Under the pieces are notes generated by a model. It saw only the letters and a program-made list of their open reading frames with translations. It was not told the DNA's origin and did no database searches. DNA of 64,000 bases from Siphonodentalium dalli (lineage: Eukaryota; Mollusca; Scaphopoda; Gadilida; Siphonodentaliidae). This document shows positions 482 to 62,040 of the stretch, piece by piece; position 1 is the first letter of the stretch; each line of letters begins with the position of its first letter. The translations under genes were made by a program, and so were the position numbers. The stretch covers positions 2,666,001-2,730,000 of the forward strand of contig CP136064.1 in the NCBI GenBank assembly GCA_032622095.1. Reading direction: 5' to 3'.

Positions 482-547
482 TACCCCTAGACCATCACAT
501 CGACCCAGGTTGTTGGCCCATTATGTAACACCCTCTCCAAGTTGAGC

Positions 548-568
548 TAAAGTGTCATGGACACTTTA
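548..568. repeat. 21-bp palindrome upstream of the RhoGAP exon
   Basis: TAAAGTGTC-ATG-GACACTTTA: perfect 9-bp arms around a 3-bp centre. It lies 140 bp before the exon acceptor and recurs at the same offset in the other units. It could be a protein-binding site or simply repeat structure; nothing else supports a role. Confidence 0.5.
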
Positions 569-708
569 ATTTATCAACAACATGGTTGACGGCAGCCATC
601 AATCGACTTTACTTTTTACATCACTAAATATTTCAGCATTCACTTCTCTACAACCACTAAATTTACTGGGAGTTATATGTATCATGTTTATTATATTTCT
701 GTTTACAG

Positions 709-1156
709 AAGTCTATAAAAGCTGGTGGCAGGTCACTCCCAACATCGGTTGTGCTGCATGACGCAGCCGTGCTATTCAAAAGAACACTCCTCCAACTTCA
801 AAGCTTAATTCCCTTACGACTTATCAGTCATATGAAGAAAATGGATATAAATATCTGTTTACTAATAGAGAGAGAAAAACTAGTCATTTTAAAATTCGTT
901 ATTTCCATTTTAAAGAAGATTGCTGCCGATCCGGATAACGGAATGTCTGCTCGGGCGTTGGCTGTTGTAATGGCGCCAAACATTATTCAATCTGTCGACC
1001 AGCATGAGGTGATCATCCAATTTACAGAACTTCTTATTAATAATTCGGATGACATTGGAATGGTATCCAGGACATTAATGAAAAAAGCAAATGAATTTAA
1101 AACAATCGAATTAATTGGACATTTTCCAGTGAAGAGGCGAGGATCATCATTGTCGA
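709..1156 (+). CDS. RhoGAP C-terminal half-domain exon, array copy 1
   Basis: An internal exon of a Rho GTPase-activating protein; such proteins speed GTP hydrolysis by Rho/Rac/Cdc42 and act in cytoskeleton or cytokinesis control. The acceptor is TTTCTGTTTACAG ending at 708 and the donor is GA|GTAAGT from 1157, giving 448 nt, which reads as phase 0 in and phase 1 out. Residues about 18-35 (DAAVLFKR...LIP) match the RhoGAP helix before the usual L-P-E-P loop, which here reads LQLQS and is eroded. Residues 77-93 (NGMSARALAVVMAPNII) match the conserved N-K-M...N-L-A-V...A-P-N block. Residues 113-127 (SDDIGMVSRTLMKKA) recall the end of ARHGAP11-type domains; that subfamily call rests on memory. 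The arginine finger lies in the N-terminal half and is not encoded in the unit. A GTG at 751 begins the open frame only by codon-table convention; the true frame enters at 709. Residue 138 is His. Confidence 0.72.
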
Positions 1157-1425
1157 GTAAGTCACATTGTTACATGTCATATTGACAAATCTAGAAATGA
1201 ATGGAAGTTTTTGTGGTTGAATAATGTATCTAGACATCAGAAGCGCTTTTTGACGCCTTACAACATTTCCTCAGAAGCACATTTCGAAACCACGAAAGGC
1301 CATTTCTAGAATTTAAAAATTAGAATGACGGCGATCACAGAACTAAGGTAAAAACATGCTAAAGCCGACTAAAACGTCAAAATCTCTGAGGAAATGGGAC
1401 GTAAATTATGTTGCCGTGGCAAGGT

Positions 1426-1533
1426 GCGCTGAGTTTTTAACGTCACAACGTCAAAGTAACCTGGGGGTTGTAGTCAGCTGCGGGCAGAGTGGTAATGCGT
1501 TAATGAGTTGCAGTCGACCCAAGGATATATAAA
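1426..1533 (+). promoter_or_regulatory. Promoter-like block: paired CGTCA motifs and a TATA box
   Basis: Two CGTCA half-sites (TAACGTCAC, AACGTCAAAG; 1439-1457) lie about 70-85 bp upstream of a consensus TATATAAA at 1526-1533. The CGTCA word is the reverse of the CREB/ATF half-site TGACG. The block recurs in every unit, inside the segment that follows the RhoGAP exon. No convincing coding exon follows within the next 200 bp: the first ATG opens only about 28 hydrophobic codons. The promoter call is an inference from motifs alone. Confidence 0.25.
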
Positions 1534-1694
1534 TGCACCCCCCGCAATGAGTTTGATACAAAATTTAAGATTATTATTCAAGTTCATGATTTATATTTTT
1601 AATTTGTATATAGAATTTTGCAGCAGATGTTTTATAGCATTCTCTAGCTATCAATTCATTTTTTCATCGTAATTTGGCTAGCAGAAATTGGAAA

Positions 1695-1717
1695 TCACAT
1701 CGCAAATTGCGATGTGA
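1695..1717. repeat. 23-bp near-perfect palindrome in the array unit
   Basis: Arms TCACATCGCAA and TTGCGATGTGA are separated by a single A. It is repeated at the same place in every unit inspected. It would form a very short hairpin or a symmetrical binding site; function unknown. Confidence 0.6.
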
Positions 1718-2018
1718 ATCAAGTTAAAATGAGCCCTGAAGTTGTCATCTGTATTTATTCTACACTGTTCTGACAGATAATTTCAATCTATACCGGTACC
1801 TCACACCTTCATTCATACTATAGCTACCTCTGTGATTATAAGTCTGATGAATCACCCAGGGCTTATATTTCATCCCACTTAACAAGAATTCATGCCTACG
1901 GGTCCCAGGATCCGATGGGGTGACCTAGGTTGGCCCCATGGGAGGAAATTGTTCATTTTTATGTCTAAAATATGCAATTTCCTTGCTTCTAGATCTGGTG
2001 CATCATTAAAGATCCTGT

Positions 2019-2142
2019 GCCAGTGCATTCTCTTATATATGCGAGTCTCCCATAGTGAGCCTATTGTTAGACCGATACATTTTCTTTACACGCGGGGCTC
2101 CCTATGGGAGAATAGCTAGCGTATATTAGAGAACGCACTGGC
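2019..2142. mobile_element. 124-bp inverted-repeat element embedded in every array unit (unit 1 copy shown)
   Basis: Ends GCCAGTGC...GCACTGGC are the tips of ~40-bp imperfect arms that also contain TCTCCCATAG/CTATGGGAGA. The same family, with the tip sequence GCCA(A/G)(T/G)(G/C)CATTCTCTTATATATG, appears outside the array at 46564, 47570 and 47709. The preceding ATTAAAGATCCTGTGCCAG is shared with the 46564 copy, so the true element may start further left. The array copy is older and more diverged between its arms, and it was in the unit before amplification. Units 3 and 5 carry a 2-bp longer ATATATATGTGAG variant. Confidence 0.6.
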
Positions 2143-2552
2143 AAAGGGTTTTTCACAAAAAGCTCCAGTCATGAAAGGTTAAAGATATTTTTACTCAATA
2201 TCCATTCATAAAAAAATGAAGTAATTCATCTCCATAGTATAGCATTGATTCATTTCAATATATTAAATACTGGAATGTTACGAACATGAGTTTATACTAC
2301 TACTCTCTTAAATAACTCAAATAAAATAAACTTATATCTGATGTAAAGAGAAAGGCCAGTTTATATGACACAAATGAGTCATTTCTTGATCATATCCCAT
2401 TAAATAATGTACCAAGTACATTTAACCACTCGTACCAAATAGGCCACAGTCATCTATCTACATGATAGTACCTGGTCTATTCAGTACATTTACATCCAAC
2501 ATATATTTGGTCTAACATATATGTGCCTGTTATATTTCAACGTCAATTTCAG

Positions 2553-2930
2553 AGTGTTAGGTTATGGCCATGGGTTCAGAGTTATTCCTCTTTGATCCCA
2601 CTATGCAACAGTATCATTGGATATATTATGCATGTGATGAGAACAATGTTACAGTTTTTTTTACAGTGAGGAGTGAACAGTTTGTGCACAATAAAATTTC
2701 TACTGATTATCTCTCTGAGGTAAACTCTCTGAGACCACACATTTTATGCCCTCCTATTCATTACTCACTACGTAAATTACCATGTCCTCGTGTTGAAAAT
2801 GAGATTGTTTTATGGCTAAAGAGTTGCTGTTCCCATAGACTGTAAAACTGATTGCTTCGTTAGTTCTGTCAATTCATCACACACTATTTGTAACAAGTAG
2901 ATATATGAAATAAACTTTTCACCGCGGTCA
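2553..2930 (+). other. Possible terminal exon and poly(A) signal of the array unit
   Basis: A TTTCAG acceptor-like site ends at 2552. Joined to the phase-1 RhoGAP exon it would add Lys and Cys and then stop at TAG 2558-2560, leaving the rest as 3' UTR. AATAAA lies at 2909-2914. An alternative 93-codon frame (2564-2845) is open in units 1-6 only; a one-base deletion in the T run breaks it in units 7-18, and its product is unrecognisable, so it is unlikely to be coding. Units 7 and 8 carry AATTAA in place of AATAAA. This is inference from signals only. Confidence 0.25.
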
Positions 2931-2980
2931 TACCGCATGTCAACCTCGTTAAGGAGGGTCGATTAATTAGAGCATAGCTG
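2920..2980. repeat. 61-bp inter-unit linker
   Basis: Sequence between the end of one copy and the start of the next. It is present at internal junctions but missing at the left boundary (482) and the right boundary (45392) of the array. It contains a small perfect hairpin, GCGGT-CAT-ACCGC. It is probably filler created when the tandem duplication formed, or a remnant of the original flank. Confidence 0.7.
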
Positions 2981-3207
2981 TACCCCTAGACCATCACATT
3001 GACCCAGGTTGTTGGCCCATTATGTAACACCCTCTCCAAGTTGAGCTAAAGTGTCATGGACACTTTAATTTATCAACAACATGGCTGACGGCAGCCATCA
3101 ATCGACTTTACTTTTTACATCACTAAATATTTCAGCATTCACTTCTCTACAACCACTAAATTTACTGGGAGTTATATGTATCATGTTTATTATATTTCTG
3201 TTTACAG

Positions 3208-3655
3208 AAGTCTATAAAAGCTGGTGGCAGGTCACTCCCAACATCGGTTGTGCTGCATGACGCAGCCGTGCTATTCAAAAGAACACTCCTCCAACTTCAA
3301 AGCTTAATTCCCTTACGACTTATCAGTCATATGAAGAAAATGGATATAAATATCTGTTTACTAATAGAGAGAGAAAAACTAGTCATTTTAAAATTCGTTA
3401 TTTCCATTTTAAAGAAGATTGCTGCCGATCCGGATAACGGAATGTCTGCTCGGGCGTTGGCTGTTGTAATGGCGCCAAACATTATTCAATCTGTCGACCA
3501 GCATGAGGTGATCATCCAATTTACAGAACTTCTTATTAATAATTCGGATGACATTGGAATGGTATCCAGGACATTAATGAAAAAAGCAAATGAATTTAAA
3601 ACAATCGAATTAATTGGACATTTTCCAGTGAAGAGGCGAGGATCATCATTGTCGA
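3208..3655 (+). CDS. RhoGAP exon, array copy 2
   Basis: Same 448-nt exon in unit 2981-5479 with intact acceptor (AG at 3206-3207) and GTAAGT donor at 3656. It has His at residue 138 and the CGA arginine codon near the end, so the exon reads the same as copy 1. Confidence 0.7.
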
Positions 3656-5706
3656 GTAAGTCACATTGTTACATGTCATATTGACAAATCTAGAAATGAA
3701 TGGAAGTTTTTGTGGTTGAATAATGTATCTAGACATCAGAAGCGCTTTTTGACGCCTTACAACATTTCCTCAGAAGCACATTTCGAAACCACGAAAGGCC
3801 ATTTCTAGAATTTAAAAATTAGAATGACGGCGATCACAGAACTAAGGTAAAAACATGCTAAAGCCGACTAAAACGTCAAAATCTCTGAGGAAATGGGACG
3901 TAAATTATGTTGCCGTGGCAAGGTGCGCTGAGTTTTTAACGTCACAACGTCAAAGTAACCTGGGGGTTGTAGTCAGCTGCGGGCAGAGTGGTAATGCGTT
4001 AATGAGTTGCAGTCGACCCAAGGATATATAAATGCACCCTCCGCAATGAGTTTGATACAAAATTTAAGATTATTATTCAAGTTCATGATTTATATTTTTA
4101 ATTTGTATATAGAATTTTGCAGCAGATGTTTTATAGCATTCTCTAGCTATCAATTCATTTTTTCATCGTAATTTGGCTAGCAGAAATTGGAAATCACATC
4201 GCAAATTGCGATGTGAATCAAGTTAAAATGAGCCCTGAAGTTGTCATCTGTATTTATTCTACACTGTTCTGACAGATAATTTCAATCTATACCGGTACCT
4301 CACACCTTCATTCATACTATAGCTACCTCTGTGATTATAAGTCTGATGAATCACCCAGGGCTTATATTTCATCCCACTTAACAAGAATTCATGCCTACGG
4401 GTCCCAGGATCCGATGGGGTGACCTAGGTTGGCCCCATGGGAGGAAATTGTTCATTTTTATGTCTAAAATATGCAATTTCCTTGCTTCTAGATCTGGTGC
4501 ATCATTAAAGATCCTGTGCCAGTGCATTCTCTTATATATGCGAGTCTCCCATAGTGAGCCTATTGTTAGACCGATACATTTTCTTTACACGCGGGGCTCC
4601 CTATGGGAGAATAGCTAGCGTATATTAGAGAACGCACTGGCAAAGGGTTTTTCACAAAAAGCTCCAGTCATGAAAGGTTAAAGATATTTTTACTCAATAT
4701 CCATTCATAAAAAAATGAAGTAATTCATCTCCATAGTATAGCATTGATTCATTTCAATATATTAAATACTGGAATGTTACGAACATGAGTTTATACTACT
4801 ACTCTCTTAAATAACTCAAATAAAATAAACTTATATCTGATGTAAAGAGAAAGGCCAGTTTATATGACACAAATGAGTCATTTCTTGATTATATCCCATT
4901 AAATAATGTACCAAGTACATTTAACCACTCGTACCAAATAGGCCACAGTCATCTATCTACATGATAGTACCTGGTCTATTCAGTACATTTACATCCAACA
5001 TATATTTGGTCTAACATGTATGTGCCTGTTATATTTCAACGTCAATTTCAGAGTGTTAGGTTATGGCCATGGGTTCAGAGTTATTCCTCTTTGATCCCAC
5101 TATGCAACAGTATCATTGGATATATTATGCATGTGATGAGAACAATGTTACAGTTTTTTTTACAGTGAGGAGTGAACAGTTTGTGCACAATAAAATTTCT
5201 ACTGATTATCTCTCTGAGGTAAACTCTCTGAGACCACACATTTTATGCCCTCCTATTCATTACTCACTACGTAAATTACCATGTCCTCGTGTTGAAAATG
5301 AGATTGTTTTATGGCTAAAGAGTTGCTGTTCCCATAGACTGTAAAACTGATTGCTTCGTTAGTTCTGTCAATTCATCACACACTATTTGTAACAAGTAGA
5401 TATATGAAATAAACTTTTCACCGCGGTCATACCGCATGTCAACCTCGTTAAGGAGGGTCGATTAATTAGAGCATAGCTGTACCCCTAGACCATCACATCG
5501 ACCCAGGTTGTTGGCCCATTATGTAACACCCTCTCCAAGTTGAGCTAAAGTGTCATGGACACTTTAATTTATCAACAACATGGCTGACGGCAGCCATCAA
5601 TCGACTTTACTTTTTACATCACTAAATATTTCAGCATTCACTTCTCTACAACCACTAAATTTACTGGGAGTTATATGTATCATGTTTATTATATTTCTGT
5701 TTACAG

Positions 5707-6154
5707 AAGTCTATAAAAGCTGGTGGCAGGTCACTCCCAACATCGGTTGTGCTGCATGACGCAGCCGTGCTATTCAAAAGAACACTCCTCCAACTTCAAA
5801 GCTTAATTCCCTTACGACTTATCAGTCATATGAAGAAAATGGATATAAATATCTGTTTACTAATAGAGAGAGAAAAACTAGTCATTTTAAAATTCGTTAT
5901 TTCCATTTTAAAGAAGATTGCTGCCGATCCGGATAACGGAATGTCTGCTCGGGCGTTGGCTGTTGTAATGGCGCCAAACATTATTCAATCTGTCGACCAG
6001 CATGAGGTGATCATCCAATTTACAGAACTTCTTATTAATAATTCGGATGACATTGGAATGGTATCCAGGACATTAATGAAAAAAGCAAATGAATTTAAAA
6101 CAATCGAATTAATTGGACATTTTCCAGTGAAGAGGCGTGGATCATCATTGTCGA
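5707..6154 (+). CDS. RhoGAP exon, array copy 3
   Basis: Exon of unit 5480-7980. It has His at residue 138 and a silent CGA to CGT change in the KRRG segment, shared only with copy 5. A C to G change just inside the following intron (GTAAGTG instead of GTAAGTC) does not touch the donor, but it would end an unspliced reading frame seven codons sooner than in the other copies. Confidence 0.7.
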
Positions 6155-8207
6155 GTAAGTGACATTGTTACATGTCATATTGACAAATCTAGAAATGAAT
6201 GGAAGTTTTTGTGGTTGAATAATGTATCTAGACATCAGAAGCGCTTTTTGACGCCTTACAACATTTCCTCAGAAGCACATTTCGAAAACACGAAAGGCCA
6301 TTTCTAGAATTTAAAAATTAGAATGACGGCGATCACAGAACTAAGGTAAAAACATGCTAAAGCCGACTAAAACGTCAAAATCTCTGAGGAAATGGGACGT
6401 AAATTATGTTGCCGTGGCAAGGTGCGCTGAGTTTTTAACGTCACAACGTCAAAGTAACCTGGGGGTTGTAGTCAGCTGCGGGCAGAGTGGTAATGCGTTA
6501 ATGAGTTGCAGTCGACCCAAGGATATATAAATGCACCCTCCGCAATGAGTTTGATACAAAATTTAAGATTATTATTCAAGTTCATGATTTATATTTTTAA
6601 TTTGTATATAGAATTTTGCAGCAGATGTTTTATAGCATTCTCTAGCTATCAATTCATTTTTTCATCGTAATTTGGCTAGCAGAAATTGGAAATCACATCG
6701 CAAATTGCGATGTGAATCAAGTTAAAATGAGCCCTGAAGTTGTCATCTGTATTTATTCTACACTGTTCTGACAGATAATTTCAATCTATACCGGTACCTC
6801 ACACCTTCATTCATACTATAGCTACCTCTGTGATTATAAGTCTGATGAATCACCCAGGGCTTATATTTCATCCCACTTAACAAGAATTCATGCCTACGGG
6901 TCCCAGGATCCGATGGGGTGACCTAGGTTGGCCCCATGGGAGGAAATTGTTCATTTTTATGTCTAAAATATGCAATTTCCTTGCTTCTAGATCTGGTGCA
7001 TCATTAAAGATCCAGTGCCAGTGCATTCTCTTATATATATGTGAGTCTCCCATAGTGAGCCTATTGTTAGACCGATACATTTTCTTTACACGCGGGGCTC
7101 CCTATGGGAGAATAGCTAGCGTATATTAGAGAACGCACTGGCAAAGGGTTTTTCACAAAAAGCTCCAGTCATGAAAGGTTAAAGATATTTTTACTCAATA
7201 TCCATTCATAAAAAAATGAAGTAATTCATCTCCATAGTATAGCATTGATTCATTTCAATATATTAAATACTGGAATGTTACGAACATGAGTTTATACTAC
7301 TACTCTCTTAAATAACTCAAATAAAATAAACTTATATCTGATGTAAAGAGAAAGGCCAGTTTATATGACACAAATGAGTCATTTCTTGATCATATCCCAT
7401 TAAATAATGTACCAAGTACATTTAACCACTCGTACCAAATAGGCCACAGTCATCTATCTACATGATAGTACCTGGTCTATTCAGTACATTTACATCCAAC
7501 ATATATTTGGTCTAACATGTATGTGCCTGTTATATTTCAACGTCAATTTCAGAGTGTTAGGTTATGGCCATGGGTTCAGAGTTATTCCTCTTTGATCCCA
7601 CTATGCAACAGTATCATTGGATATATTATGCATGTGATGAGAACAATGTTACAGTTTTTTTTACAGTGAGGAGTGAACAGTTTGTGCACAATAAAATTTC
7701 TACTGATTATCTCTCTGAGGTAAACTCTCTGAGACCACACATTTTATGCCCTCCTATTCATTACTCACTACGTAAATTACCATGTCCTCGTGTTGAAAAT
7801 GAGATTGTTTTATGGCTAAAGAGTTGCTGTTCCCATAGACTGTAAAACTGATTGCTTCGTTAGTTCTGTCAATTCATCACACACTATTTGTAACAAGTAG
7901 ATATATGAAATAAACTTTTCACCGCGGTCATACCGCATGTCAACCTCGTTAAGGAGGGTCGATTAATTAGAGCATAGCTGTACCCCTAGACCATCACATC
8001 GACCCAGGTTGTTGGCCCATTATGTAACACCCTCTCCAAGTTGAGCTAAAGTGTCATGGACACTTTAATTTATCAACAACATGGCTGACGGCAGCCATCA
8101 ATCGACTTTACTTTTTACATCACTAAATATTTCAGCATTCACTTCTCTACAACCACTAAATTTACTGGGAGTTATATGTATCATGTTTATTATATTTCTG
8201 TTTACAG

Positions 8208-8655
8208 AAGTCTATAAAAGCTGGTGGCAGGTCACTCCCAACATCGGTTGTGCTGCATGACGCAGCCGTGCTATTCAAAAGAACACTCCTCCAACTTCAA
8301 AGCTTAATTCCCTTACGACTTATCAGTCATATGAAGAAAATGGATATAAATATCTGTTTACTAATAGAGAGAGAAAAACTAGTCATTTTAAAATTCGTTA
8401 TTTCCATTTTAAAGAAGATTGCTGCCGATCCGGATAACGGAATGTCTGCTCGGGCGTTGGCTGTTGTAATGGCGCCAAACATTATTCAATCTGTCGACCA
8501 GCATGAGGTGATCATCCAATTTACAGAACTTCTTATTAATAATTCGGATGACATTGGAATGGTATCCAGGACATTAATGAAAAAAGCAAATGAATTTAAA
8601 ACAATCGAATTAATTGGAGATTTTCCAGTGAAGAGGCGAGGATCATCATTGTCGA
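8208..8655 (+). CDS. RhoGAP exon, array copy 4
   Basis: Exon of unit 7981-10478. This is the first copy with Asp instead of His at residue 138 (CAT to GAT). The intron carries a one-base deletion and ACGTAAGG variant near 8780-8795, shared with copy 6. Confidence 0.7.
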
Positions 8656-10705: not shown

Positions 10706-11153
10706 AAGTCTATAAAAGCTGGTGGCAGGTCACTCCCAACATCGGTTGTGCTGCATGACGCAGCCGTGCTATTCAAAAGAACACTCCTCCAACTTCAAAG
10801 CTTAATTCCCTTACGACTTATCAGTCATATGAAGAAAATGGATATAAATATCTGTTTACTAATAGAGAGAGAAAAACTAGTCATTTTAAAATTCGTTATT
10901 TCCATTTTAAAGAAGATTGCTGCCGATCCGGATAACGGAATGTCTGCTCGGGCGTTGGCTGTTGTAATGGCGCCAAACATTATTCAATCTGTCGACCAGC
11001 ATGAGGTGATCATCCAATTTACAGAACTTCTTATTAATAATTCGGATGACATTGGAATGGTATCCAGGACATTAATGAAAAAAGCAAATGAATTTAAAAC
11101 AATCGAATTAATTGGACATTTTCCAGTGAAGAGGCGTGGATCATCATTGTCGA
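10706..11153 (+). CDS. RhoGAP exon, array copy 5
   Basis: Exon of unit 10479-12979. His-138 and the silent CGT codon match copy 3, as does the longer 2501-bp unit. Splice sites are intact. Confidence 0.7.
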
Positions 11154-13206: not shown

Positions 13207-13654
13207 AAGTCTATAAAAGCTGGTGGCAGGTCACTCCCAACATCGGTTGTGCTGCATGACGCAGCCGTGCTATTCAAAAGAACACTCCTCCAACTTCAAA
13301 GCTTAATTCCCTTACGACTTATCAGTCATATGAAGAAAATGGATATAAATATCTGTTTACTAATAGAGAGAGAAAAACTAGTCATTTTAAAATTCGTTAT
13401 TTCCATTTTAAAGAAGATTGCTGCCGATCCGGATAACGGAATGTCTGCTCGGGCGTTGGCTGTTGTAATGGCGCCAAACATTATTCAATCTGTCGACCAG
13501 CATGAGGTGATCATCCAATTTACAGAACTTCTTATTAATAATTCGGATGACATTGGAATGGTATCCAGGACATTAATGAAAAAAGCAAATGAATTTAAAA
13601 CAATCGAATTAATTGGAGATTTTCCAGTGAAGAGGCGAGGATCATCATTGTCGA
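13207..13654 (+). CDS. RhoGAP exon, array copy 6
   Basis: Exon of unit 12980-15477. Asp-138, matching copy 4 in exon and intron variants. Units 5-6 therefore look like a duplicate of the 3-4 dimer. Confidence 0.7.
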
Positions 13655-15704: not shown

Positions 15705-16152
15705 AAGTCTATAAAAGCTGGTGGCAGGTCACTCCCAACATCGGTTGTGCTGCATGACGCAGCCGTGCTATTCAAAAGAACACTCCTCCAACTTCAAAGC
15801 TTAATTCCCTTACGACTTATCAGTCATATGAAGAAAATGGATATAAATATCTGTTTACTAATAGAGAGAGAAAAACTAGTCATTTTAAAATTCGTTATTT
15901 CCATTTTAAAGAAGATTGCTGCCGATCCGGATAACGGAATGTCTGCTCGGGCGTTGGCTGTTGTAATGGCGCCAAACATTATTCAATCTGTCGACCAGCA
16001 TGAGGTGATCATCCAATTTACAGAACTTCTTATTAATAATTCGGATGACATTGGAATGGTATCCAGGACATTAATGAAAAAAGCAAATGAATTTAAAACA
16101 ATCGAATTAATTGGAGATTTTCCAGTGAAGAGGCGAGGATCATCATTGTCGA
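15705..16152 (+). CDS. RhoGAP exon, array copy 7
   Basis: Exon of unit 15478-17975, Asp-138. The intron has CATCGGAAGC and TTGCTGTGG variants shared only with copy 8. The far 3' part of this unit has the first single-T deletion in the T run near 17650. Confidence 0.7.
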
Positions 16153-18202: not shown

Positions 18203-18650
18203 AAGTCTATAAAAGCTGGTGGCAGGTCACTCCCAACATCGGTTGTGCTGCATGACGCAGCCGTGCTATTCAAAAGAACACTCCTCCAACTTCAAAGCTT
18301 AATTCCCTTACGACTTATCAGTCATATGAAGAAAATGGATATAAATATCTGTTTACTAATAGAGAGAGAAAAACTAGTCATTTTAAAATTCGTTATTTCC
18401 ATTTTAAAGAAGATTGCTGCCGATCCGGATAACGGAATGTCTGCTCGGGCGTTGGCTGTTGTAATGGCGCCAAACATTATTCAATCTGTCGACCAGCATG
18501 AGGTGATCATCCAATTTACAGAACTTCTTATTAATAATTCGGATGACATTGGAATGGTATCCAGGACATTAATGAAAAAAGCAAATGAATTTAAAACAAT
18601 CGAATTAATTGGAGATTTTCCAGTGAAGAGGCGAGGATCATCATTGTCGA
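18203..18650 (+). CDS. RhoGAP exon, array copy 8
   Basis: Exon of unit 17976-20473, Asp-138. All unit-level variants I checked match copy 7, including the mutated AATTAA in place of AATAAA. Confidence 0.7.
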
Positions 18651-20700: not shown

Positions 20701-21148
20701 AAGTCTATAAAAGCTGGTGGCAGGTCACTCCCAACATCGGTTGTGCTGCATGACGCAGCCGTGCTATTCAAAAGAACACTCCTCCAACTTCAAAGCTTAA
20801 TTCCCTTACGACTTATCAGTCATATGAAGAAAATGGATATAAATATCTGTTTACTAATAGAGAGAGAAAAACTAGTCATTTTAAAATTCGTTATTTCCAT
20901 TTTAAAGAAGATTGCTGCCGATCCGGATAACGGAATGTCTGCTCGGGCGTTGGCTGTTGTAATGGCGCCAAACATTATTCAATCTGTCGACCAGCATGAG
21001 GTGATCATCCAATTTACAGAACTTCTTATTAATAATTCGGATGACATTGGAATGGTATCCAGGACATTAATGAAAAAAGCAAATGAATTTAAAACAATCG
21101 AATTAATTGGAGATTTTCCAGTGAAGAGGCGAGGATCATCATTGTCGA
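20701..21148 (+). CDS. RhoGAP exon, array copy 9
   Basis: Exon of unit 20474-22971, Asp-138. From here on the units share GGATAAATAATG in place of GGATATATTATG near the 3' end, and AATAAA is intact again. Confidence 0.7.
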
Positions 21149-23198: not shown

Positions 23199-23646
23199 AA
23201 GTCTATAAAAGCTGGTGGCAGGTCACTCCCAACATCGGTTGTGCTGCATGACGCAGCCGTGCTATTCAAAAGAACACTCCTCCAACTTCAAAGCTTAATT
23301 CCCTTACGACTTATCAGTCATATGAAGAAAATGGATATAAATATCTGTTTACTAATAGAGAGAGAAAAACTAGTCATTTTAAAATTCGTTATTTCCATTT
23401 TAAAGAAGATTGCTGCCGATCCGGATAACGGAATGTCTGCTCGGGCGTTGGCTGTTGTAATGGCGCCAAACATTATTCAATCTGTCGACCAGCATGAGGT
23501 GATCATCCAATTTACAGAACTTCTTATTAATAATTCGGATGACATTGGAATGGTATCCAGGACATTAATGAAAAAAGCAAATGAATTTAAAACAATCGAA
23601 TTAATTGGAGATTTTCCAGTGAAGAGGCGAGGATCATCATTGTCGA
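23199..23646 (+). CDS. RhoGAP exon, array copy 10
   Basis: Exon of unit 22972-25469, Asp-138. No difference from copy 9 seen in the exon. Confidence 0.7.
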
Positions 23647-25696: not shown

Positions 25697-26144
25697 AAGT
25701 CTATAAAAGCTGGTGGCAGGTCACTCCCAACATCGGTTGTGCTGCATGACGCAGCCGTGCTATTCAAAAGAACACTCCTCCAACTTCAAAGCTTAATTCC
25801 CTTACGACTTATCAGTCATATGAAGAAAATGGATATAAATATCTGTTTACTAATAGAGAGAGAAAAACTAGTCATTTTAAAATTCGTTATTTCCATTTTA
25901 AAGAAGATTGCTGCCGATCCGGATAACGGAATGTCTGCTCGGGCGTTGGCTGTTGTAATGGCGCCAAACATTATTCAATCTGTCGACCAGCATGAGGTGA
26001 TCATCCAATTTACAGAACTTCTTATTAATAATTCGGATGACATTGGAATGGTATCCAGGACATTAATGAAAAAAGCAAATGAATTTAAAACAATCGAATT
26101 AATTGGAGATTTTCCAGTGAAGAGGCGAGGATCATCATTGTCGA
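25697..26144 (+). CDS. RhoGAP exon, array copy 11
   Basis: Exon of unit 25470-27967, Asp-138. The intron reads AAAAATTAG and the later segment reads ACCTCACACC, as in copy 13. Confidence 0.7.
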
Positions 26145-28194: not shown

Positions 28195-28642
28195 AAGTCT
28201 ATAAAAGCTGGTGGCAGGTCACTCCCAACATCGGTTGTGCTGCATGACGCAGCCGTGCTATTCAAAAGAACACTCCTCCAACTTCAAAGCTTAATTCCCT
28301 TACGACTTATCAGTCATATGAAGAAAATGGATATAAATATCTGTTTACTAATAGAGAGAGAAAAACTAGTCATTTTAAAATTCGTTATTTCCATTTTAAA
28401 GAAGATTGCTGCCGATCCGGATAACGGAATGTCTGCTCGGGCGTTGGCTGTTGTAATGGCGCCAAACATTATTCAATCTGTCGACCAGCATGAGGTGATC
28501 ATCCAATTTACAGAACTTCTTATTAATAATTCGGATGACATTGGAATGGTATCCAGGACATTAATGAAAAAAGCAAATGAATTTAAAACAATCGAATTAA
28601 TTGGAGATTTTCCAGTGAAGAGGCGAGGATCATCATTGTCGA
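28195..28642 (+). CDS. RhoGAP exon, array copy 12
   Basis: Exon of unit 27968-30465, Asp-138. The intron reads AAAAGTTAG and the later segment ACCTCTCACC, as in copies 14-18. Confidence 0.7.
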
Positions 28643-30692: not shown

Positions 30693-31140
30693 AAGTCTAT
30701 AAAAGCTGGTGGCAGGTCACTCCCAACATCGGTTGTGCTGCATGACGCAGCCGTGCTATTCAAAAGAACACTCCTCCAACTTCAAAGCTTAATTCCCTTA
30801 CGACTTATCAGTCATATGAAGAAAATGGATATAAATATCTGTTTACTAATAGAGAGAGAAAAACTAGTCATTTTAAAATTCGTTATTTCCATTTTAAAGA
30901 AGATTGCTGCCGATCCGGATAACGGAATGTCTGCTCGGGCGTTGGCTGTTGTAATGGCGCCAAACATTATTCAATCTGTCGACCAGCATGAGGTGATCAT
31001 CCAATTTACAGAACTTCTTATTAATAATTCGGATGACATTGGAATGGTATCCAGGACATTAATGAAAAAAGCAAATGAATTTAAAACAATCGAATTAATT
31101 GGAGATTTTCCAGTGAAGAGGCGAGGATCATCATTGTCGA
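30693..31140 (+). CDS. RhoGAP exon, array copy 13
   Basis: Exon of unit 30466-32963, Asp-138. It reverts to the copy-11 intron type (AAAAATTAG, CCTCACACC), breaking the run of copy-12-type units. Confidence 0.7.
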
Positions 31141-33190: not shown

Positions 33191-33638
33191 AAGTCTATAA
33201 AAGCTGGTGGCAGGTCACTCCCAACATCGGTTGTGCTGCATGACGCAGCCGTGCTATTCAAAAGAACACTCCTCCAACTTCAAAGCTTAATTCCCTTACG
33301 ACTTATCAGTCATATGAAGAAAATGGATATAAATATCTGTTTACTAATAGAGAGAGAAAAACTAGTCATTTTAAAATTCGTTATTTCCATTTTAAAGAAG
33401 ATTGCTGCCGATCCGGATAACGGAATGTCTGCTCGGGCGTTGGCTGTTGTAATGGCGCCAAACATTATTCAATCTGTCGACCAGCATGAGGTGATCATCC
33501 AATTTACAGAACTTCTTATTAATAATTCGGATGACATTGGAATGGTATCCAGGACATTAATGAAAAAAGCAAATGAATTTAAAACAATCGAATTAATTGG
33601 AGATTTTCCAGTGAAGAGGCGAGGATCATCATTGTCGA
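33191..33638 (+). CDS. RhoGAP exon, array copy 14
   Basis: Exon of unit 32964-35461, Asp-138, copy-12-type intron. Splice sites intact. Confidence 0.7.
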
Positions 33639-35688: not shown

Positions 35689-36136
35689 AAGTCTATAAAA
35701 GCTGGTGGCAGGTCACTCCCAACATCGGTTGTGCTGCATGACGCAGCCGTGCTATTCAAAAGAACACTCCTCCAACTTCAAAGCTTAATTCCCTTACGAC
35801 TTATCAGTCATATGAAGAAAATGGATATAAATATCTGTTTACTAATAGAGAGAGAAAAACTAGTCATTTTAAAATTCGTTATTTCCATTTTAAAGAAGAT
35901 TGCTGCCGATCCGGATAACGGAATGTCTGCTCGGGCGTTGGCTGTTGTAATGGCGCCAAACATTATTCAATCTGTCGACCAGCATGAGGTGATCATCCAA
36001 TTTACAGAACTTCTTATTAATAATTCGGATGACATTGGAATGGTATCCAGGACATTAATGAAAAAAGCAAATGAATTTAAAACAATCGAATTAATTGGAG
36101 ATTTTCCAGTGAAGAGGCGAGGATCATCATTGTCGA
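35689..36136 (+). CDS. RhoGAP exon, array copy 15
   Basis: Exon of unit 35462-37959, Asp-138, copy-12-type intron. No exon difference from copy 14 seen. Confidence 0.7.
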
Positions 36137-38186
36137 GTAAGTCACATTGTTACATGTCATATTGACAAATCTAGAAATGAATGGAAGTTTTTGTGGTTGA
36201 ATAATGTATCTAGACATCAGAAGCGCTTTTTGACGCCTTACAACATTTCCTCAGAAGCACATTTCGAAACCACGAAAGGCCATTTCTAGAATTTAAAAGT
36301 TAGAATGACGGCGATCACAGAACTAAGGTAAAAACATGCTAAAGCCGACTAAAACGTCAAAATCTCTGAGGAAATGGGACGTAAATTATGTTGCCGTGGC
36401 AAGGTGCGCTGAGTTTTTAACGTCACAACGTCAAAGTAACCTGGGGGTTGTAGTCAGCTGCGGGCAGAGTGGTAATGCGTTAATGAGTTGCAGTCGACCC
36501 AAGGATATATAAATGCACCCTCCGCAATGAGTTTGATACAAAATTTAAGATTATTATTCAAGTTCATGATTTATATTTTTAATTTGTATATAGAATTTTG
36601 CAGCAGATGTTTTATAGCATTCTCTAGCTATCAATTCATTTTTTCATCGTAATTTGGCTAGCAGAAATTGGAAATCACATCGCAAATTGCGATGTGAATC
36701 AAGTTAAAATGAGCCCTGAAGTTGTCATCTGTATTTATTCTACACTGTTCTGACAGATAATTTCAATCTATACCGGTACCTCTCACCTTCATTCATACTA
36801 TAGCTACCTCTGTGATTATAAGTCTGATGAATCACCCAGGGCTTATATTTCATCCCACTTAACAAGAATTCATGCCTACGGGTCCCAGGATCCGATGGGG
36901 TGACCTAGGTTGGCCCCATGGGAGGAAATTGTTCATTTTTATGTCTAAAATATGCAATTTCCTTGCTTCTAGATCTGGTGCATCATTAAAGATCCTGTGC
37001 CAGTGCATTCTCTTATATATGCGAGTCTCCCATAGTGAGCCTATTGTTAGACCGATACATTTTCTTTACACGCGGGGCTCCCTATGGGAGAATAGCTAGC
37101 GTATATTAGAGAACGCACTGGCAAAGGGTTTTTCACAAAAAGCTCCAGTCATGAAAGGTTAAAGATATTTTTACTCAATATCCATTCATAAAAAAATGAA
37201 GTAATTCATCTCCATAGTATAGCATTGATTCATTTCAATATATTAAATACTGGAATGTTACGAACATGAGTTTATACTACTACTCTCTTAAATAACTCAA
37301 ATAAAATAAACTTATATCTGATGTAAAGAGAAAGGCCAGTTTATATGACACAAATGAGTCATTTCTTGATCATATCCCATTAAATAATGTACCAAGTACA
37401 TTTAACCACTCGTACCAAATAGGCCACAGTCATCTATCTACATGATAGTACCTGGTCTATTCAGTACATTTACATCCAACATATATTTGGTCTAACATGT
37501 ATGTGCCTGTTATATTTCAACGTCAATTTCAGAGTGTTAGGTTATGGCCATGGGTTCAGAGTTATTCCTCTTTGATCCCACTATGCAACAGTATCATTGG
37601 ATAAATAATGCATGTGATGAGAACAATGTTACAGTTTTTTTACAGTGAGGAGTGAACAGTTTGTGCACAATAAAATTTCTACTGATTATCTCTCTGAGGT
37701 AAACTCTCTGAGACCACACATTTTATGCCCTCCTATTCATTACTCACTACGTATATTACCATGTCCTCGTGTTGAAAATGAGATTGTTTTATGGCTAAAG
37801 AGTTGCTGTTCCCATAGACTGTAAAACTGATTGCTTCGTTAGTTCTGTCAATTCATCACACACTATTTGTAACAAGTAGATATATGAAATAAACTTTTCA
37901 CCGCGGTCATACCGCATGTCAACCTCGTTAAGGAGGGTCGATTAATTAGAGCATAGCTGTACCCCTAGACCATCACATCGACCCAGGTTGTTGGCCCATT
38001 ATGTAACACCCTCTCCAAGTTGAGCTAAAGTGTCATGGACACTTTAATTTATCAACAACATGGCTGACGGCAGCCATCAATCGACTTTACTTTTTACATC
38101 ACTAAATATTTCAGCATTCACTTCTCTACAACCACTAAATTTACTGGGAGTTATATGTATCATGTTTATTATATTTCTGTTTACAG

Positions 38187-38634
38187 AAGTCTATAAAAGC
38201 TGGTGGCAGGTCACTCCCAACATCGGTTGTGCTGCATGACGCAGCCGTGCTATTCAAAAGAACACTCCTCCAACTTCAAAGCTTAATTCCCTTACGACTT
38301 ATCAGTCATATGAAGAAAATGGATATAAATATCTGTTTACTAATAGAGAGAGAAAAACTAGTCATTTTAAAATTCGTTATTTCCATTTTAAAGAAGATTG
38401 CTGCCGATCCGGATAACGGAATGTCTGCTCGGGCGTTGGCTGTTGTAATGGCGCCAAACATTATTCAATCTGTCGACCAGCATGAGGTGATCATCCAATT
38501 TACAGAACTTCTTATTAATAATTCGGATGACATTGGAATGGTATCCAGGACATTAATGAAAAAAGCAAATGAATTTAAAACAATCGAATTAATTGGAGAT
38601 TTTCCAGTGAAGAGGCGAGGATCATCATTGTCGA
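38187..38634 (+). CDS. RhoGAP exon, array copy 16
   Basis: Exon of unit 37960-40457, Asp-138, copy-12-type intron. No exon difference from copy 14 seen. Confidence 0.7.
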
Positions 38635-40684
38635 GTAAGTCACATTGTTACATGTCATATTGACAAATCTAGAAATGAATGGAAGTTTTTGTGGTTGAAT
38701 AATGTATCTAGACATCAGAAGCGCTTTTTGACGCCTTACAACATTTCCTCAGAAGCACATTTCGAAACCACGAAAGGCCATTTCTAGAATTTAAAAGTTA
38801 GAATGACGGCGATCACAGAACTAAGGTAAAAACATGCTAAAGCCGACTAAAACGTCAAAATCTCTGAGGAAATGGGACGTAAATTATGTTGCCGTGGCAA
38901 GGTGCGCTGAGTTTTTAACGTCACAACGTCAAAGTAACCTGGGGGTTGTAGTCAGCTGCGGGCAGAGTGGTAATGCGTTAATGAGTTGCAGTCGACCCAA
39001 GGATATATAAATGCACCCTCCGCAATGAGTTTGATACAAAATTTAAGATTATTATTCAAGTTCATGATTTATATTTTTAATTTGTATATAGAATTTTGCA
39101 GCAGATGTTTTATAGCATTCTCTAGCTATCAATTCATTTTTTCATCGTAATTTGGCTAGCAGAAATTGGAAATCACATCGCAAATTGCGATGTGAATCAA
39201 GTTAAAATGAGCCCTGAAGTTGTCATCTGTATTTATTCTACACTGTTCTGACAGATAATTTCAATCTATACCGGTACCTCTCACCTTCATTCATACTATA
39301 GCTACCTCTGTGATTATAAGTCTGATGAATCACCCAGGGCTTATATTTCATCCCACTTAACAAGAATTCATGCCTACGGGTCCCAGGATCCGATGGGGTG
39401 ACCTAGGTTGGCCCCATGGGAGGAAATTGTTCATTTTTATGTCTAAAATATGCAATTTCCTTGCTTCTAGATCTGGTGCATCATTAAAGATCCTGTGCCA
39501 GTGCATTCTCTTATATATGCGAGTCTCCCATAGTGAGCCTATTGTTAGACCGATACATTTTCTTTACACGCGGGGCTCCCTATGGGAGAATAGCTAGCGT
39601 ATATTAGAGAACGCACTGGCAAAGGGTTTTTCACAAAAAGCTCCAGTCATGAAAGGTTAAAGATATTTTTACTCAATATCCATTCATAAAAAAATGAAGT
39701 AATTCATCTCCATAGTATAGCATTGATTCATTTCAATATATTAAATACTGGAATGTTACGAACATGAGTTTATACTACTACTCTCTTAAATAACTCAAAT
39801 AAAATAAACTTATATCTGATGTAAAGAGAAAGGCCAGTTTATATGACACAAATGAGTCATTTCTTGATCATATCCCATTAAATAATGTACCAAGTACATT
39901 TAACCACTCGTACCAAATAGGCCACAGTCATCTATCTACATGATAGTACCTGGTCTATTCAGTACATTTACATCCAACATATATTTGGTCTAACATGTAT
40001 GTGCCTGTTATATTTCAACGTCAATTTCAGAGTGTTAGGTTATGGCCATGGGTTCAGAGTTATTCCTCTTTGATCCCACTATGCAACAGTATCATTGGAT
40101 AAATAATGCATGTGATGAGAACAATGTTACAGTTTTTTTACAGTGAGGAGTGAACAGTTTGTGCACAATAAAATTTCTACTGATTATCTCTCTGAGGTAA
40201 ACTCTCTGAGACCACACATTTTATGCCCTCCTATTCATTACTCACTACGTATATTACCATGTCCTCGTGTTGAAAATGAGATTGTTTTATGGCTAAAGAG
40301 TTGCTGTTCCCATAGACTGTAAAACTGATTGCTTCGTTAGTTCTGTCAATTCATCACACACTATTTGTAACAAGTAGATATATGAAATAAACTTTTCACC
40401 GCGGTCATACCGCATGTCAACCTCGTTAAGGAGGGTCGATTAATTAGAGCATAGCTGTACCCCTAGACCATCACATCGACCCAGGTTGTTGGCCCATTAT
40501 GTAACACCCTCTCCAAGTTGAGCTAAAGTGTCATGGACACTTTAATTTATCAACAACATGGCTGACGGCAGCCATCAATCGACTTTACTTTTTACATCAC
40601 TAAATATTTCAGCATTCACTTCTCTACAACCACTAAATTTACTGGGAGTTATATGTATCATGTTTATTATATTTCTGTTTACAG

Positions 40685-41132
40685 AAGTCTATAAAAGCTG
40701 GTGGCAGGTCACTCCCAACATCGGTTGTGCTGCATGACGCAGCCGTGCTATTCAAAAGAACACTCCTCCAACTTCAAAGCTTAATTCCCTTACGACTTAT
40801 CAGTCATATGAAGAAAATGGATATAAATATCTGTTTACTAATAGAGAGAGAAAAACTAGTCATTTTAAAATTCGTTATTTCCATTTTAAAGAAGATTGCT
40901 GCCGATCCGGATAACGGAATGTCTGCTCGGGCGTTGGCTGTTGTAATGGCGCCAAACATTATTCAATCTGTCGACCAGCATGAGGTGATCATCCAATTTA
41001 CAGAACTTCTTATTAATAATTCGGATGACATTGGAATGGTATCCAGGACATTAATGAAAAAAGCAAATGAATTTAAAACAATCGAATTAATTGGAGATTT
41101 TCCAGTGAAGAGGCGAGGATCATCATTGTCGA
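40685..41132 (+). CDS. RhoGAP exon, array copy 17
   Basis: Exon of unit 40458-42955, Asp-138, copy-12-type intron. This is the last unit that carries CGTATATTACC near its 3' end. Confidence 0.7.
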
Positions 41133-43182
41133 GTAAGTCACATTGTTACATGTCATATTGACAAATCTAGAAATGAATGGAAGTTTTTGTGGTTGAATAA
41201 TGTATCTAGACATCAGAAGCGCTTTTTGACGCCTTACAACATTTCCTCAGAAGCACATTTCGAAACCACGAAAGGCCATTTCTAGAATTTAAAAGTTAGA
41301 ATGACGGCGATCACAGAACTAAGGTAAAAACATGCTAAAGCCGACTAAAACGTCAAAATCTCTGAGGAAATGGGACGTAAATTATGTTGCCGTGGCAAGG
41401 TGCGCTGAGTTTTTAACGTCACAACGTCAAAGTAACCTGGGGGTTGTAGTCAGCTGCGGGCAGAGTGGTAATGCGTTAATGAGTTGCAGTCGACCCAAGG
41501 ATATATAAATGCACCCTCCGCAATGAGTTTGATACAAAATTTAAGATTATTATTCAAGTTCATGATTTATATTTTTAATTTGTATATAGAATTTTGCAGC
41601 AGATGTTTTATAGCATTCTCTAGCTATCAATTCATTTTTTCATCGTAATTTGGCTAGCAGAAATTGGAAATCACATCGCAAATTGCGATGTGAATCAAGT
41701 TAAAATGAGCCCTGAAGTTGTCATCTGTATTTATTCTACACTGTTCTGACAGATAATTTCAATCTATACCGGTACCTCTCACCTTCATTCATACTATAGC
41801 TACCTCTGTGATTATAAGTCTGATGAATCACCCAGGGCTTATATTTCATCCCACTTAACAAGAATTCATGCCTACGGGTCCCAGGATCCGATGGGGTGAC
41901 CTAGGTTGGCCCCATGGGAGGAAATTGTTCATTTTTATGTCTAAAATATGCAATTTCCTTGCTTCTAGATCTGGTGCATCATTAAAGATCCTGTGCCAGT
42001 GCATTCTCTTATATATGCGAGTCTCCCATAGTGAGCCTATTGTTAGACCGATACATTTTCTTTACACGCGGGGCTCCCTATGGGAGAATAGCTAGCGTAT
42101 ATTAGAGAACGCACTGGCAAAGGGTTTTTCACAAAAAGCTCCAGTCATGAAAGGTTAAAGATATTTTTACTCAATATCCATTCATAAAAAAATGAAGTAA
42201 TTCATCTCCATAGTATAGCATTGATTCATTTCAATATATTAAATACTGGAATGTTACGAACATGAGTTTATACTACTACTCTCTTAAATAACTCAAATAA
42301 AATAAACTTATATCTGATGTAAAGAGAAAGGCCAGTTTATATGACACAAATGAGTCATTTCTTGATCATATCCCATTAAATAATGTACCAAGTACATTTA
42401 ACCACTCGTACCAAATAGGCCACAGTCATCTATCTACATGATAGTACCTGGTCTATTCAGTACATTTACATCCAACATATATTTGGTCTAACATGTATGT
42501 GCCTGTTATATTTCAACGTCAATTTCAGAGTGTTAGGTTATGGCCATGGGTTCAGAGTTATTCCTCTTTGATCCCACTATGCAACAGTATCATTGGATAA
42601 ATAATGCATGTGATGAGAACAATGTTACAGTTTTTTTACAGTGAGGAGTGAACAGTTTGTGCACAATAAAATTTCTACTGATTATCTCTCTGAGGTAAAC
42701 TCTCTGAGACCACACATTTTATGCCCTCCTATTCATTACTCACTACGTATATTACCATGTCCTCGTGTTGAAAATGAGATTGTTTTATGGCTAAAGAGTT
42801 GCTGTTCCCATAGACTGTAAAACTGATTGCTTCGTTAGTTCTGTCAATTCATCACACACTATTTGTAACAAGTAGATATATGAAATAAACTTTTCACCGC
42901 GGTCATACCGCATGTCAACCTCGTTAAGGAGGGTCGATTAATTAGAGCATAGCTGTACCCCTAGACCATCACATCGACCCAGGTTGTTGGCCCATTATGT
43001 AACACCCTCTCCAAGTTGAGCTAAAGTGTCATGGACACTTTAATTTATCAACAACATGGCTGACGGCAGCCATCAATCGACTTTACTTTTTACATCACTA
43101 AATATTTCAGCATTCACTTCTCTACAACCACTAAATTTACTGGGAGTTATATGTATCATGTTTATTATATTTCTGTTTACAG

Positions 43183-43630
43183 AAGTCTATAAAAGCTGGT
43201 GGCAGGTCACTCCCAACATCGGTTGTGCTGCATGACGCAGCCGTGCTATTCAAAAGAACACTCCTCCAACTTCAAAGCTTAATTCCCTTACGACTTATCA
43301 GTCATATGAAGAAAATGGATATAAATATCTGTTTACTAATAGAGAGAGAAAAACTAGTCATTTTAAAATTCGTTATTTCCATTTTAAAGAAGATTGCTGC
43401 CGATCCGGATAACGGAATGTCTGCTCGGGCGTTGGCTGTTGTAATGGCGCCAAACATTATTCAATCTGTCGACCAGCATGAGGTGATCATCCAATTTACA
43501 GAACTTCTTATTAATAATTCGGATGACATTGGAATGGTATCCAGGACATTAATGAAAAAAGCAAATGAATTTAAAACAATCGAATTAATTGGAGATTTTC
43601 CAGTGAAGAGGCGAGGATCATCATTGTCGA
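43183..43630 (+). CDS. RhoGAP exon, array copy 18 (last)
   Basis: Exon of the final, truncated unit 42956-45392, Asp-138. The unit carries the copy-12-type intron but the older CGTAAATTACC spelling near 45243. It ends at the T run after AATAAA, without the 61-bp linker. Confidence 0.7.
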
Positions 43631-45392
43631 GTAAGTCACATTGTTACATGTCATATTGACAAATCTAGAAATGAATGGAAGTTTTTGTGGTTGAATAATG
43701 TATCTAGACATCAGAAGCGCTTTTTGACGCCTTACAACATTTCCTCAGAAGCACATTTCGAAACCACGAAAGGCCATTTCTAGAATTTAAAAGTTAGAAT
43801 GACGGCGATCACAGAACTAAGGTAAAAACATGCTAAAGCCGACTAAAACGTCAAAATCTCTGAGGAAATGGGACGTAAATTATGTTGCCGTGGCAAGGTG
43901 CGCTGAGTTTTTAACGTCACAACGTCAAAGTAACCTGGGGGTTGTAGTCAGCTGCGGGCAGAGTGGTAATGCGTTAATGAGTTGCAGTCGACCCAAGGAT
44001 ATATAAATGCACCCTCCGCAATGAGTTTGATACAAAATTTAAGATTATTATTCAAGTTCATGATTTATATTTTTAATTTGTATATAGAATTTTGCAGCAG
44101 ATGTTTTATAGCATTCTCTAGCTATCAATTCATTTTTTCATCGTAATTTGGCTAGCAGAAATTGGAAATCACATCGCAAATTGCGATGTGAATCAAGTTA
44201 AAATGAGCCCTGAAGTTGTCATCTGTATTTATTCTACACTGTTCTGACAGATAATTTCAATCTATACCGGTACCTCTCACCTTCATTCATACTATAGCTA
44301 CCTCTGTGATTATAAGTCTGATGAATCACCCAGGGCTTATATTTCATCCCACTTAACAAGAATTCATGCCTACGGGTCCCAGGATCCGATGGGGTGACCT
44401 AGGTTGGCCCCATGGGAGGAAATTGTTCATTTTTATGTCTAAAATATGCAATTTCCTTGCTTCTAGATCTGGTGCATCATTAAAGATCCTGTGCCAGTGC
44501 ATTCTCTTATATATGCGAGTCTCCCATAGTGAGCCTATTGTTAGACCGATACATTTTCTTTACACGCGGGGCTCCCTATGGGAGAATAGCTAGCGTATAT
44601 TAGAGAACGCACTGGCAAAGGGTTTTTCACAAAAAGCTCCAGTCATGAAAGGTTAAAGATATTTTTACTCAATATCCATTCATAAAAAAATGAAGTAATT
44701 CATCTCCATAGTATAGCATTGATTCATTTCAATATATTAAATACTGGAATGTTACGAACATGAGTTTATACTACTACTCTCTTAAATAACTCAAATAAAA
44801 TAAACTTATATCTGATGTAAAGAGAAAGGCCAGTTTATATGACACAAATGAGTCATTTCTTGATCATATCCCATTAAATAATGTACCAAGTACATTTAAC
44901 CACTCGTACCAAATAGGCCACAGTCATCTATCTACATGATAGTACCTGGTCTATTCAGTACATTTACATCCAACATATATTTGGTCTAACATGTATGTGC
45001 CTGTTATATTTCAACGTCAATTTCAGAGTGTTAGGTTATGGCCATGGGTTCAGAGTTATTCCTCTTTGATCCCACTATGCAACAGTATCATTGGATAAAT
45101 AATGCATGTGATGAGAACAATGTTACAGTTTTTTTACAGTGAGGAGTGAACAGTTTGTGCACAATAAAATTTCTACTGATTATCTCTCTGAGGTAAACTC
45201 TCTGAGACCACACATTTTATGCCCTCCTATTCATTACTCACTACGTAAATTACCATGTCCTCGTGTTGAAAATGAGATTGTTTTATGGCTAAAGAGTTGC
45301 TGTTCCCATAGACTGTAAAACTGATTGCTTCGTTAGTTCTGTCAATTCATCACACACTATTTGTAACAAGTAGATATATGAAATAAACTTTT

Positions 45393-45756: not shown

Positions 45757-46563
45757 ATTAATGGTACACCCATTGTATGTATTACCATAGTGGCCACTGG
45801 CAAGCTCCTATCATGGACAGTAATTAATTACCTCTTGACATGTGTCGGTCCTTGTTTATCAATTTTTTTTTATGATGATTATACCCTCTCCCCAACCCCC
45901 AACCCCCATATATTGTGGGGGTGATACTAGATCAGCTTGTCTGTCCATCATCTATCTGTGAACACAAATTTGTCCAGATTTTTTCTCAGTCATTGTTTAA
46001 ATAATTTTTCCTGAAACTTGGCACAGGCATCAACCACCATCGGAAACTGCACCTGTGATTATGAGGTCTGTCCTACTTTTTTTTTAGTTGTCTCCCTCCC
46101 TTTTTCTACTAAGAAAATTTTCATTTAGTGTTTTAAAAACATGGGGGTAGCCTTAGTCCCATTCAGGGACAGTCACACCTCATCACACCTAGTTCAATTT
46201 GTAACATGGGGCATGCATCCAATTAAAATTTTATCAAATTCGTATGGTTTTATTAATTAGTTTTATACTAAGAAAAAAAAATTCTTATTGGAACTAATTA
46301 TAACTTATTTATAATTAATAACTTATTTATAAGTATGAACTAATTATAAATTATTTATAAGTATGAATTAATTAATAACTTATTTATCAGTATGATAAGG
46401 TATCACAAGTTTCTGTTTGTAAATTCTTTATTGCTTTTTTTGTTTCTTCTCCAGGAGCAATAAAACGTATACGGTCGTTGACGGGGAAATATGCATCATA
46501 TGATCTTATGAACTAAATTAAGTGACTACGGTGAGTTTCTTTCAACAGCATTAAAGATCCTGT
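45757..46563. other. AT-rich non-coding stretch with a local tandem repeat
   Basis: No gene seen. It contains poly-T runs, a C-rich patch (45889-45908) and, at 46291-46395, about three copies of an AT-rich ~35-bp unit built on TAATTATAACTTATTTATA and AAGTATGAA. The segment around 45940-46030 reads like a dispersed repeat but I cannot name it. Confidence 0.5.
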
Positions 46564-47956: not shown

Positions 47957-48407
47957 TATACCGAATAACCATGTCATATCATCGGGTGAAACATCCGCCA
48001 ATCGCTTCGATTTGACACTGGCATCCATGATGTTACTTTGAAGAATGCGGAAGTCGTCTGAATCGTGACAATTTTTCCGGTTTGAATGTCACGGTCAAAA
48101 TACGTCATAAAATTTCGTTCGGGTGCTTCCGTGAACATGTTCGTGCTCTTCCGGTCTTAGCGGTTAACATTGCAAAAAATGGTGACCGGCAATATTTCAT
48201 GGGCGGGAAACATTGCAAATTGTAAAATCACACCCTATGGGAAATTAACATAGGCTTTTAATATGAGGTATAATAATATGATAATGCTCCAATCGTTAAT
48301 ACTAATACCTCATTGTTTTCAGACTTCCATGCATGACCAGGATATACCTGCAGTTACCATCGCCACCAGATCACAGGAGTCGAGTGTCTCATTGATTCGT
48401 CTATAAT
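47957..48407. other. No gene seen
   Basis: Non-coding-looking sequence with degenerate pieces of the preceding hairpin family around 48168-48225 and nothing else recognised. Confidence 0.5.
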
Positions 48408-61965: not shown

Positions 61966-62040
61966 ATACAAATGTGGCAAAGCGTCCCCAAATTATGATA
62001 ATTGCTGTGCCTTGCAATACACATGTCTTAAATATTTCAG

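Follow-up and report, generated by a model that had tools for sequence, protein, structure and literature searches.

Eighteen tandem copies of a RhoGAP half-domain exon in Siphonodentalium dalli: a probable gene-derived macrosatellite

The array and its exon

The stretch analyzed here, a window of 64,000 nucleotides from the scaphopod Siphonodentalium dalli (C4:2666001-2730000, in a genome assembly of 2.23 Gb in 9 contigs), contains a tandem array of 18 head-to-tail units, each carrying one copy of an exon that encodes the second half of a RhoGAP domain. All 18 units were recovered by blastn, with units 2-18 each being 99.6-99.8% identical to unit 1, and the array is far beyond chance. Unit lengths are, in order, 2499, 2499, 2501, 2498, and 2501 bp, followed by 12 units of 2498 bp and a last unit of 2437 bp. 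Kilobase-scale, nearly identical units in tandem are the make-up of a macrosatellite. A literature search with partial coverage found nothing on this array. The features are listed below in window coordinates; exon copies 2 to 18 were assigned from their open frames and splice sites.

482-45392, plus strand: tandem array of 18 head-to-tail units (blastn and unit alignment)
482-2980, plus strand: unit 1, 2,499 bp (blastn and unit alignment)
709-1156, plus strand: RhoGAP second-half exon, copy 1 (open frame, splice sites, Pfam)
3208-3655, plus strand: exon copy 2
5707-6154, plus strand: exon copy 3
8208-8655, plus strand: exon copy 4
10706-11153, plus strand: exon copy 5
13207-13654, plus strand: exon copy 6
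15705-16152, plus strand: exon copy 7
18203-18650, plus strand: exon copy 8
20701-21148, plus strand: exon copy 9
23199-23646, plus strand: exon copy 10
25697-26144, plus strand: exon copy 11
28195-28642, plus strand: exon copy 12
30693-31140, plus strand: exon copy 13
33191-33638, plus strand: exon copy 14
35689-36136, plus strand: exon copy 15
38187-38634, plus strand: exon copy 16
40685-41132, plus strand: exon copy 17
43183-43630, plus strand: exon copy 18
2920-2980, plus strand: join piece of 61 nt, the first of 17 identical ones that belong to a dispersed repeat and are missing from the two outer ends of the array

The exon is 448 nt long and open in 18/18 copies, with ttctgtttacag directly 5' as the acceptor and gtaagt 3' as the donor, which confirms the original prediction of eighteen open copies that all keep both splice sites. 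The encoded 149 residues match the Pfam RhoGAP profile (PF00620) with an E-value of 6.4e-7 and 29.8 bits, above the Pfam cut-off of 24.5, so that the profile check proposed for the half-domain assignment returned a match rather than none. The match covers only positions 99-146 of the 148 in the profile and, therefore, the half of the domain with the arginine finger is absent from the unit, again as predicted. The sole PDB match of the exon at an E-value of 0.1 or better is ARHGAP11A (0.0036). For the related gene described below, the top PDB match has an E-value of 0.0012, and chimaerins follow at 0.0034 and 0.0047. The ARHGAP11 label thus stands for weak best matches in both cases, and we speak of ARHGAP11-like sequences.

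Across the 18 units, 27 alignment columns are variable, and the 2 that fall within the exon are the same two that had been noticed before, one exchanging His and Asp (copies 1, 2, 3, and 5 against the remaining 14) and one silent (seen in copies 3 and 5). Pairs of units differ on average at 6.3 of ~2,498 sites (~0.25%) and at most by 13 substitutions, and 18 of the 153 pairs are identical when gaps are ignored. Copy 4 equals copy 6, copy 7 equals copy 8, copies 3 and 5 have private variants in common, and copies 5-6 resemble copies 3-4, while copies 9-17 split into two groups, each made up of identical units when gaps are disregarded, and copy 18 is one change away from the second group. This pattern of identity is what repeated unequal crossing over gives. 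Since the units differ by only ~0.25%, the intact frames and splice sites in all copies are to be expected and carry no information of their own.

As 448 is not a multiple of three, each copy shifts the reading frame by one, and at most one copy can be part of a productive message. Two, three, or four copies in series encode 166 residues and then reach a stop, 17 residues into the second copy, whereas one copy followed by the terminal exon described below gives an open protein end of 169 residues. An in-frame coding repeat would add whole codons with each unit, and the stop reached by copies in series speaks against a repeat protein. Furthermore, mutually exclusive exons would encode different versions of a segment, whereas the 18 copies encode two proteins that are one residue apart, which disfavors a cassette for diversity. 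The giant alternative-exon cassette that had been considered in the original prediction, therefore, did not hold up.

Two observations concern the remainder of the unit. A candidate second exon of 59 codons and a stop, in phase at 2667-2845 in all 18 copies and followed by AATAAA at 2909, was rejected as chance: it lies in a dispersed repeat, some other copies of which contain stops, and with the pyrimidine-tract threshold set to 0.6, 115 of 209 background pieces contained such a candidate, while raising it to 0.75 left 18 of 209 and none in the unit; the AATAAA string is altered by substitution in copies 7 and 8. The amplified intron also holds dispersed repeats at 805-1023, 1534-1575, and 1980-2359 of the piece window:481-2978, the first of which is 93-96% alike at 37 other places among the matches listed.

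A related gene and the exons around the array

A comparison of the array exon with its own genome gave 19 matches, corresponding to the 18 copies and a single relative, 45% identical, on the minus strand at C4:2504524-2504955. This relative belongs to a gene at C4:2497.9-2518.5 kb (minus strand) with at least four exons including an arginine finger, which lies head-to-head with the array gene at a distance of 162 kb from the array, with 148 kb between its finger exon and the array.

About C4:2518529-2518433, minus strand: finger exon of the related gene (RhoGAP first-half profile, splice phase)
About C4:2504955-2504514, minus strand: second-half exon of the related gene (similarity to the array exon)
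From C4:2498631, minus strand: terminal exon of the related gene
C1:79007.6-79008.4 kb: intronless, stop-bearing copy of the related gene (four stretches matched)

The finger exon, located 13.5 kb upstream of the relative's second half, was found with a profile of RhoGAP first halves from the same genome and has splice sites in the right phase; the same motif is fused to a second half on C1. Both profile matches are weak when taken alone (E about 0.6), yet they are convincing because both share FRKSGVQRR and occupy the same place beside a second half. Joined together, the first two exons of the related gene match Pfam RhoGAP with an E-value of 2.1e-15, and the next exon, which is the terminal one, closes the protein with RVVKKVRNSLTGRIPDYDLN. 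Using the relative as a query added the C1 match, which contains three stops, and a weak match at an E-value of 0.09. Four separate stretches of the related gene recur in the C1 copy in the same order and with the introns missing, which supports the exon order of the gene, and the copy is probably a processed pseudogene. A genome-wide search with the finger query returned the related gene and C1, as well as the related exon and the array through the second-exon part of the query.

Counterparts of the later exons of this gene were found to the right of the array.

46455-46530, plus strand: probable terminal coding exon of the same gene, single copy, with a stop at 46514-46516 and its end at a predicted donor, GTGAGT
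48323-48425, plus strand: probable 3' exon of the same gene, starting at a predicted acceptor and ending at the limit of the alignment

The acceptor at 46455, which lies 1,063 bases past the end of the array, opens RAIKRIRSLTGKYASYDLMN followed by a stop, reading in the phase in which the 448-nt exon ends. Its match to the terminal exon of the related gene scored 49. Among the 8,973 candidate sites scored on the two strands of 264 kb, the best one unrelated to this site or to the exon of the related gene reached 14. The match at 48323 to the 3' exon region of the related gene scored 78 in a local alignment, with none of 1,488 random pieces going above 39, although the predicted acceptor at this position is out of register with that of the related gene. 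As these counterparts lie to the right of the array, the array is very probably located within a second such gene, with the amplified exon being internal. This also supports the original prediction in its view of the unit as one internal exon of a partial gene.

In contrast to these downstream exons, none were found upstream with searches of incomplete power. Ungapped comparison of the finger exon with the array strand over 264 kb gave a best score of 22, while unrelated sites on the reverse strand reached 20 at most; for comparison, of 113 windows taken from the array/related exon pair, 112 exceeded 22. Gapped comparison with 2,209 open frames over 148 kb gave a best score of 38 (C4:2605885), versus 32 among 1,957 frames of the reverse strand, and 95 of 116 test pieces exceeded 38. 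The weak match at C4:2605885 showed, by eye, neither an acceptor nor a donor in the expected phase. Within C4:2.486-2.75 Mb, a genome-wide Pfam search (71 matches in all) identified nothing besides the 18 copies and the second-half exon of the related gene; however, its silence means little, because the same search missed the finger exon of the related gene itself. The upstream arginine-finger exon that the original prediction had proposed to look for was, therefore, not found over 148 kb at the incomplete power given above, and it is probably absent upstream of the array.

Short matches to an ARHGAP19-like exon of the same genome were considered as the missing finger half and rejected: the copy that was examined is a 69-aa frame with no Pfam match and no finger. 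These matches are found at 13 places in C4:2.617-2.731 Mb, including the window near 60085, and sit in duplicated blocks (C4:2.615-2.731 Mb), most of which are about 98% alike over about 370 bp.

Origin and nature of the array

Taken together, we consider it about two-thirds probable that the array arose recently and in situ, by tandem amplification of an internal exon together with its flanking introns, within a second copy of an ARHGAP11-like RhoGAP gene, and that it is thus a gene-derived macrosatellite. Among the options offered in the original prediction, a gene-derived satellite comes closest to this. The array is probably a mostly neutral repeat rather than a device for many proteins: nearly the same half-domain would result whichever copy is used, and the copies would add nothing to the protein. 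Because the searches turned up no exon for the arginine finger, it is most likely that this locus yields no active RhoGAP and acts as a macrosatellite derived from a gene.

Several points weigh against this interpretation. The array exon and the related exon share 61 of 144 aligned residues and are 50%, 64%, and 30% identical at codon positions 1, 2, and 3, respectively, the measure by which we judged constraint between them, and in a crude neutral simulation at half that divergence, only 0.5% of 2,000 sequences kept an open frame. The exon thus seems to have been coding over a long time, until recently, which does not agree with a segment that was always dead. Furthermore, the best gapped score upstream of the array (38) is above the best of the reverse strand (32), and a finger exon might be too changed for detection or lie in an unsearched stretch. 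Variable sites are fewer in the exon than in the rest (2/448 versus 25/2,053), but not significantly so (Fisher p 0.21) and, therefore, selection since the amplification is not demonstrated. Finally, the copy number was taken from one assembly and may depend on it.

Among the alternatives, a dead partial gene fares best, even though we regard it as unlikely. The 5' part with the arginine finger would have been lost and the 3' part would be decaying, leaving the array as a macrosatellite in a pseudogene without transcripts. While the result of the finger searches upstream on the array strand (best scores of 22 ungapped and 38 gapped) is in line with such a loss, both the array exon and the terminal exon have open frames and splice sites of compatible phase, the array exon bears the old coding constraint, and the weak match at C4:2605885 is still a possible finger exon.

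With respect to the course of the amplification, the joins between units are informative. Each of the 17 inner joins contains the 61-nt piece, and both ends of the array lack it. Of 693 first-look candidates for this piece, 40 were scored (17 within the array and 23 outside it, on C1, C2, C3, C4, and C8), and all of them show 100% identity over 64 or 65 nt. Of the 3 dispersed sites that were read, 2 have a minisatellite of about 20 bp ahead of the piece, while the third, like the array, has none. The 64-nt dispersed sequence appears to be the tail of a mobile element that is still young. As the simplest course, we infer a first tandem duplication, which would have brought the end of the segment next to its start, with the 61-nt piece of the dispersed repeat between them, and subsequent unequal crossing over, which would have multiplied and homogenized the units. 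An extrachromosomal circle is an improbable source: the segment would have been circularized with a piece of the mobile element, amplified by rolling circle, and reinserted by homologous recombination. The layout U-(join-U)17 is the one that a (U-join)n concatemer recombining into the native U would leave, and the perfect identity of the join piece at the 23 dispersed sites, together with the minisatellite before two of those read, would suit such an origin. However, a single tandem duplication with a templated insertion, followed by unequal crossing over, yields the same layout.

We give even less credence to a poison-exon switch, in which splicing of one copy would give a message with the terminal exon, splicing of two or more would lead to a stop, and the copy number would thereby set the amount of productive message. 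The frame shift caused by a second copy, with its stop after 17 residues, the splice sites kept in 18/18 copies, and the presence of downstream exons, the terminal one in matching phase, would all suit such a switch. However, the same frame shift would arise with any asymmetrical exon and is no sign of design, copies that are 0.25% apart should have intact splice sites in any case, and no upstream coding exon was found in the searches above. A copy-number-coded splicing dial, in which exactly one copy would give a product and more a stop, with the repeat number setting the output of the gene, is the least probable of all.

Further features were observed in the region. The window contains two similar frames at 62032-62214 and 63007-63198, the first with a match to a C2H2 zinc finger (Pfam E 0.00036, under the curated cut-off). 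Searches of the window with Rfam (gathering threshold) and ARAGORN returned 0 matches. Outside the window, a satellite of about 50 bp forms two long arrays at C4:2620.0-2628.6 kb and about 2645.2-2651.7 kb, with shifted copies about 90-94% alike, and an open frame on the minus strand at C4:2546901-2547200 resembles what we take to be a retrotransposon polymerase fragment.

Comparison with known repeat systems

In architecture, the array resembles kringle IV-2 of human LPA, where a multi-kb unit with exons is repeated in tandem within the gene, in 1 to more than 40 copies (PMC4378929). However, the exons of the LPA unit amount to 160 + 182 bp, and thus to 342 nt, a multiple of three (PMC4378929), while the 448-nt exon of the array cannot lengthen a protein in frame. 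The same difference separates the array from an exon array in Tetrahymena, in which one exon was multiplied intragenically, with the authors invoking unequal crossing over, possibly together with retrotransposition: the Tetrahymena exons are 90 bp long, a multiple of three, and are read through in frame. Human macrosatellites such as D4Z4, with its 3.3-kb units that encode DUX4, as well as TAF11-Like, SST1, PRR20, and ZAV (PMC3018141), are likewise large tandem arrays, but the unit described here is an exon with introns beside the downstream exons of its own gene, and it is known from one assembly. Regarding the gene itself, human ARHGAP11B is also a partial duplicate of an ARHGAP11 gene, ARHGAP11A, that leaves a truncated RhoGAP domain in the protein; it kept the first 8 exons and lost the last 26 residues of the domain (PMC8156310), whereas the array gene probably lacks the first half of the domain and has one exon multiplied.

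While the copies in LPA and in Tetrahymena, as described in the published accounts, each add whole codons, the S. dalli array multiplies an exon that is unable to concatenate in frame. It also calls for caution, as intact frames over many copies say little when the copies are so young. The array provides a natural test of splicing among 18 equal choices and of how gene fragments become macrosatellites.

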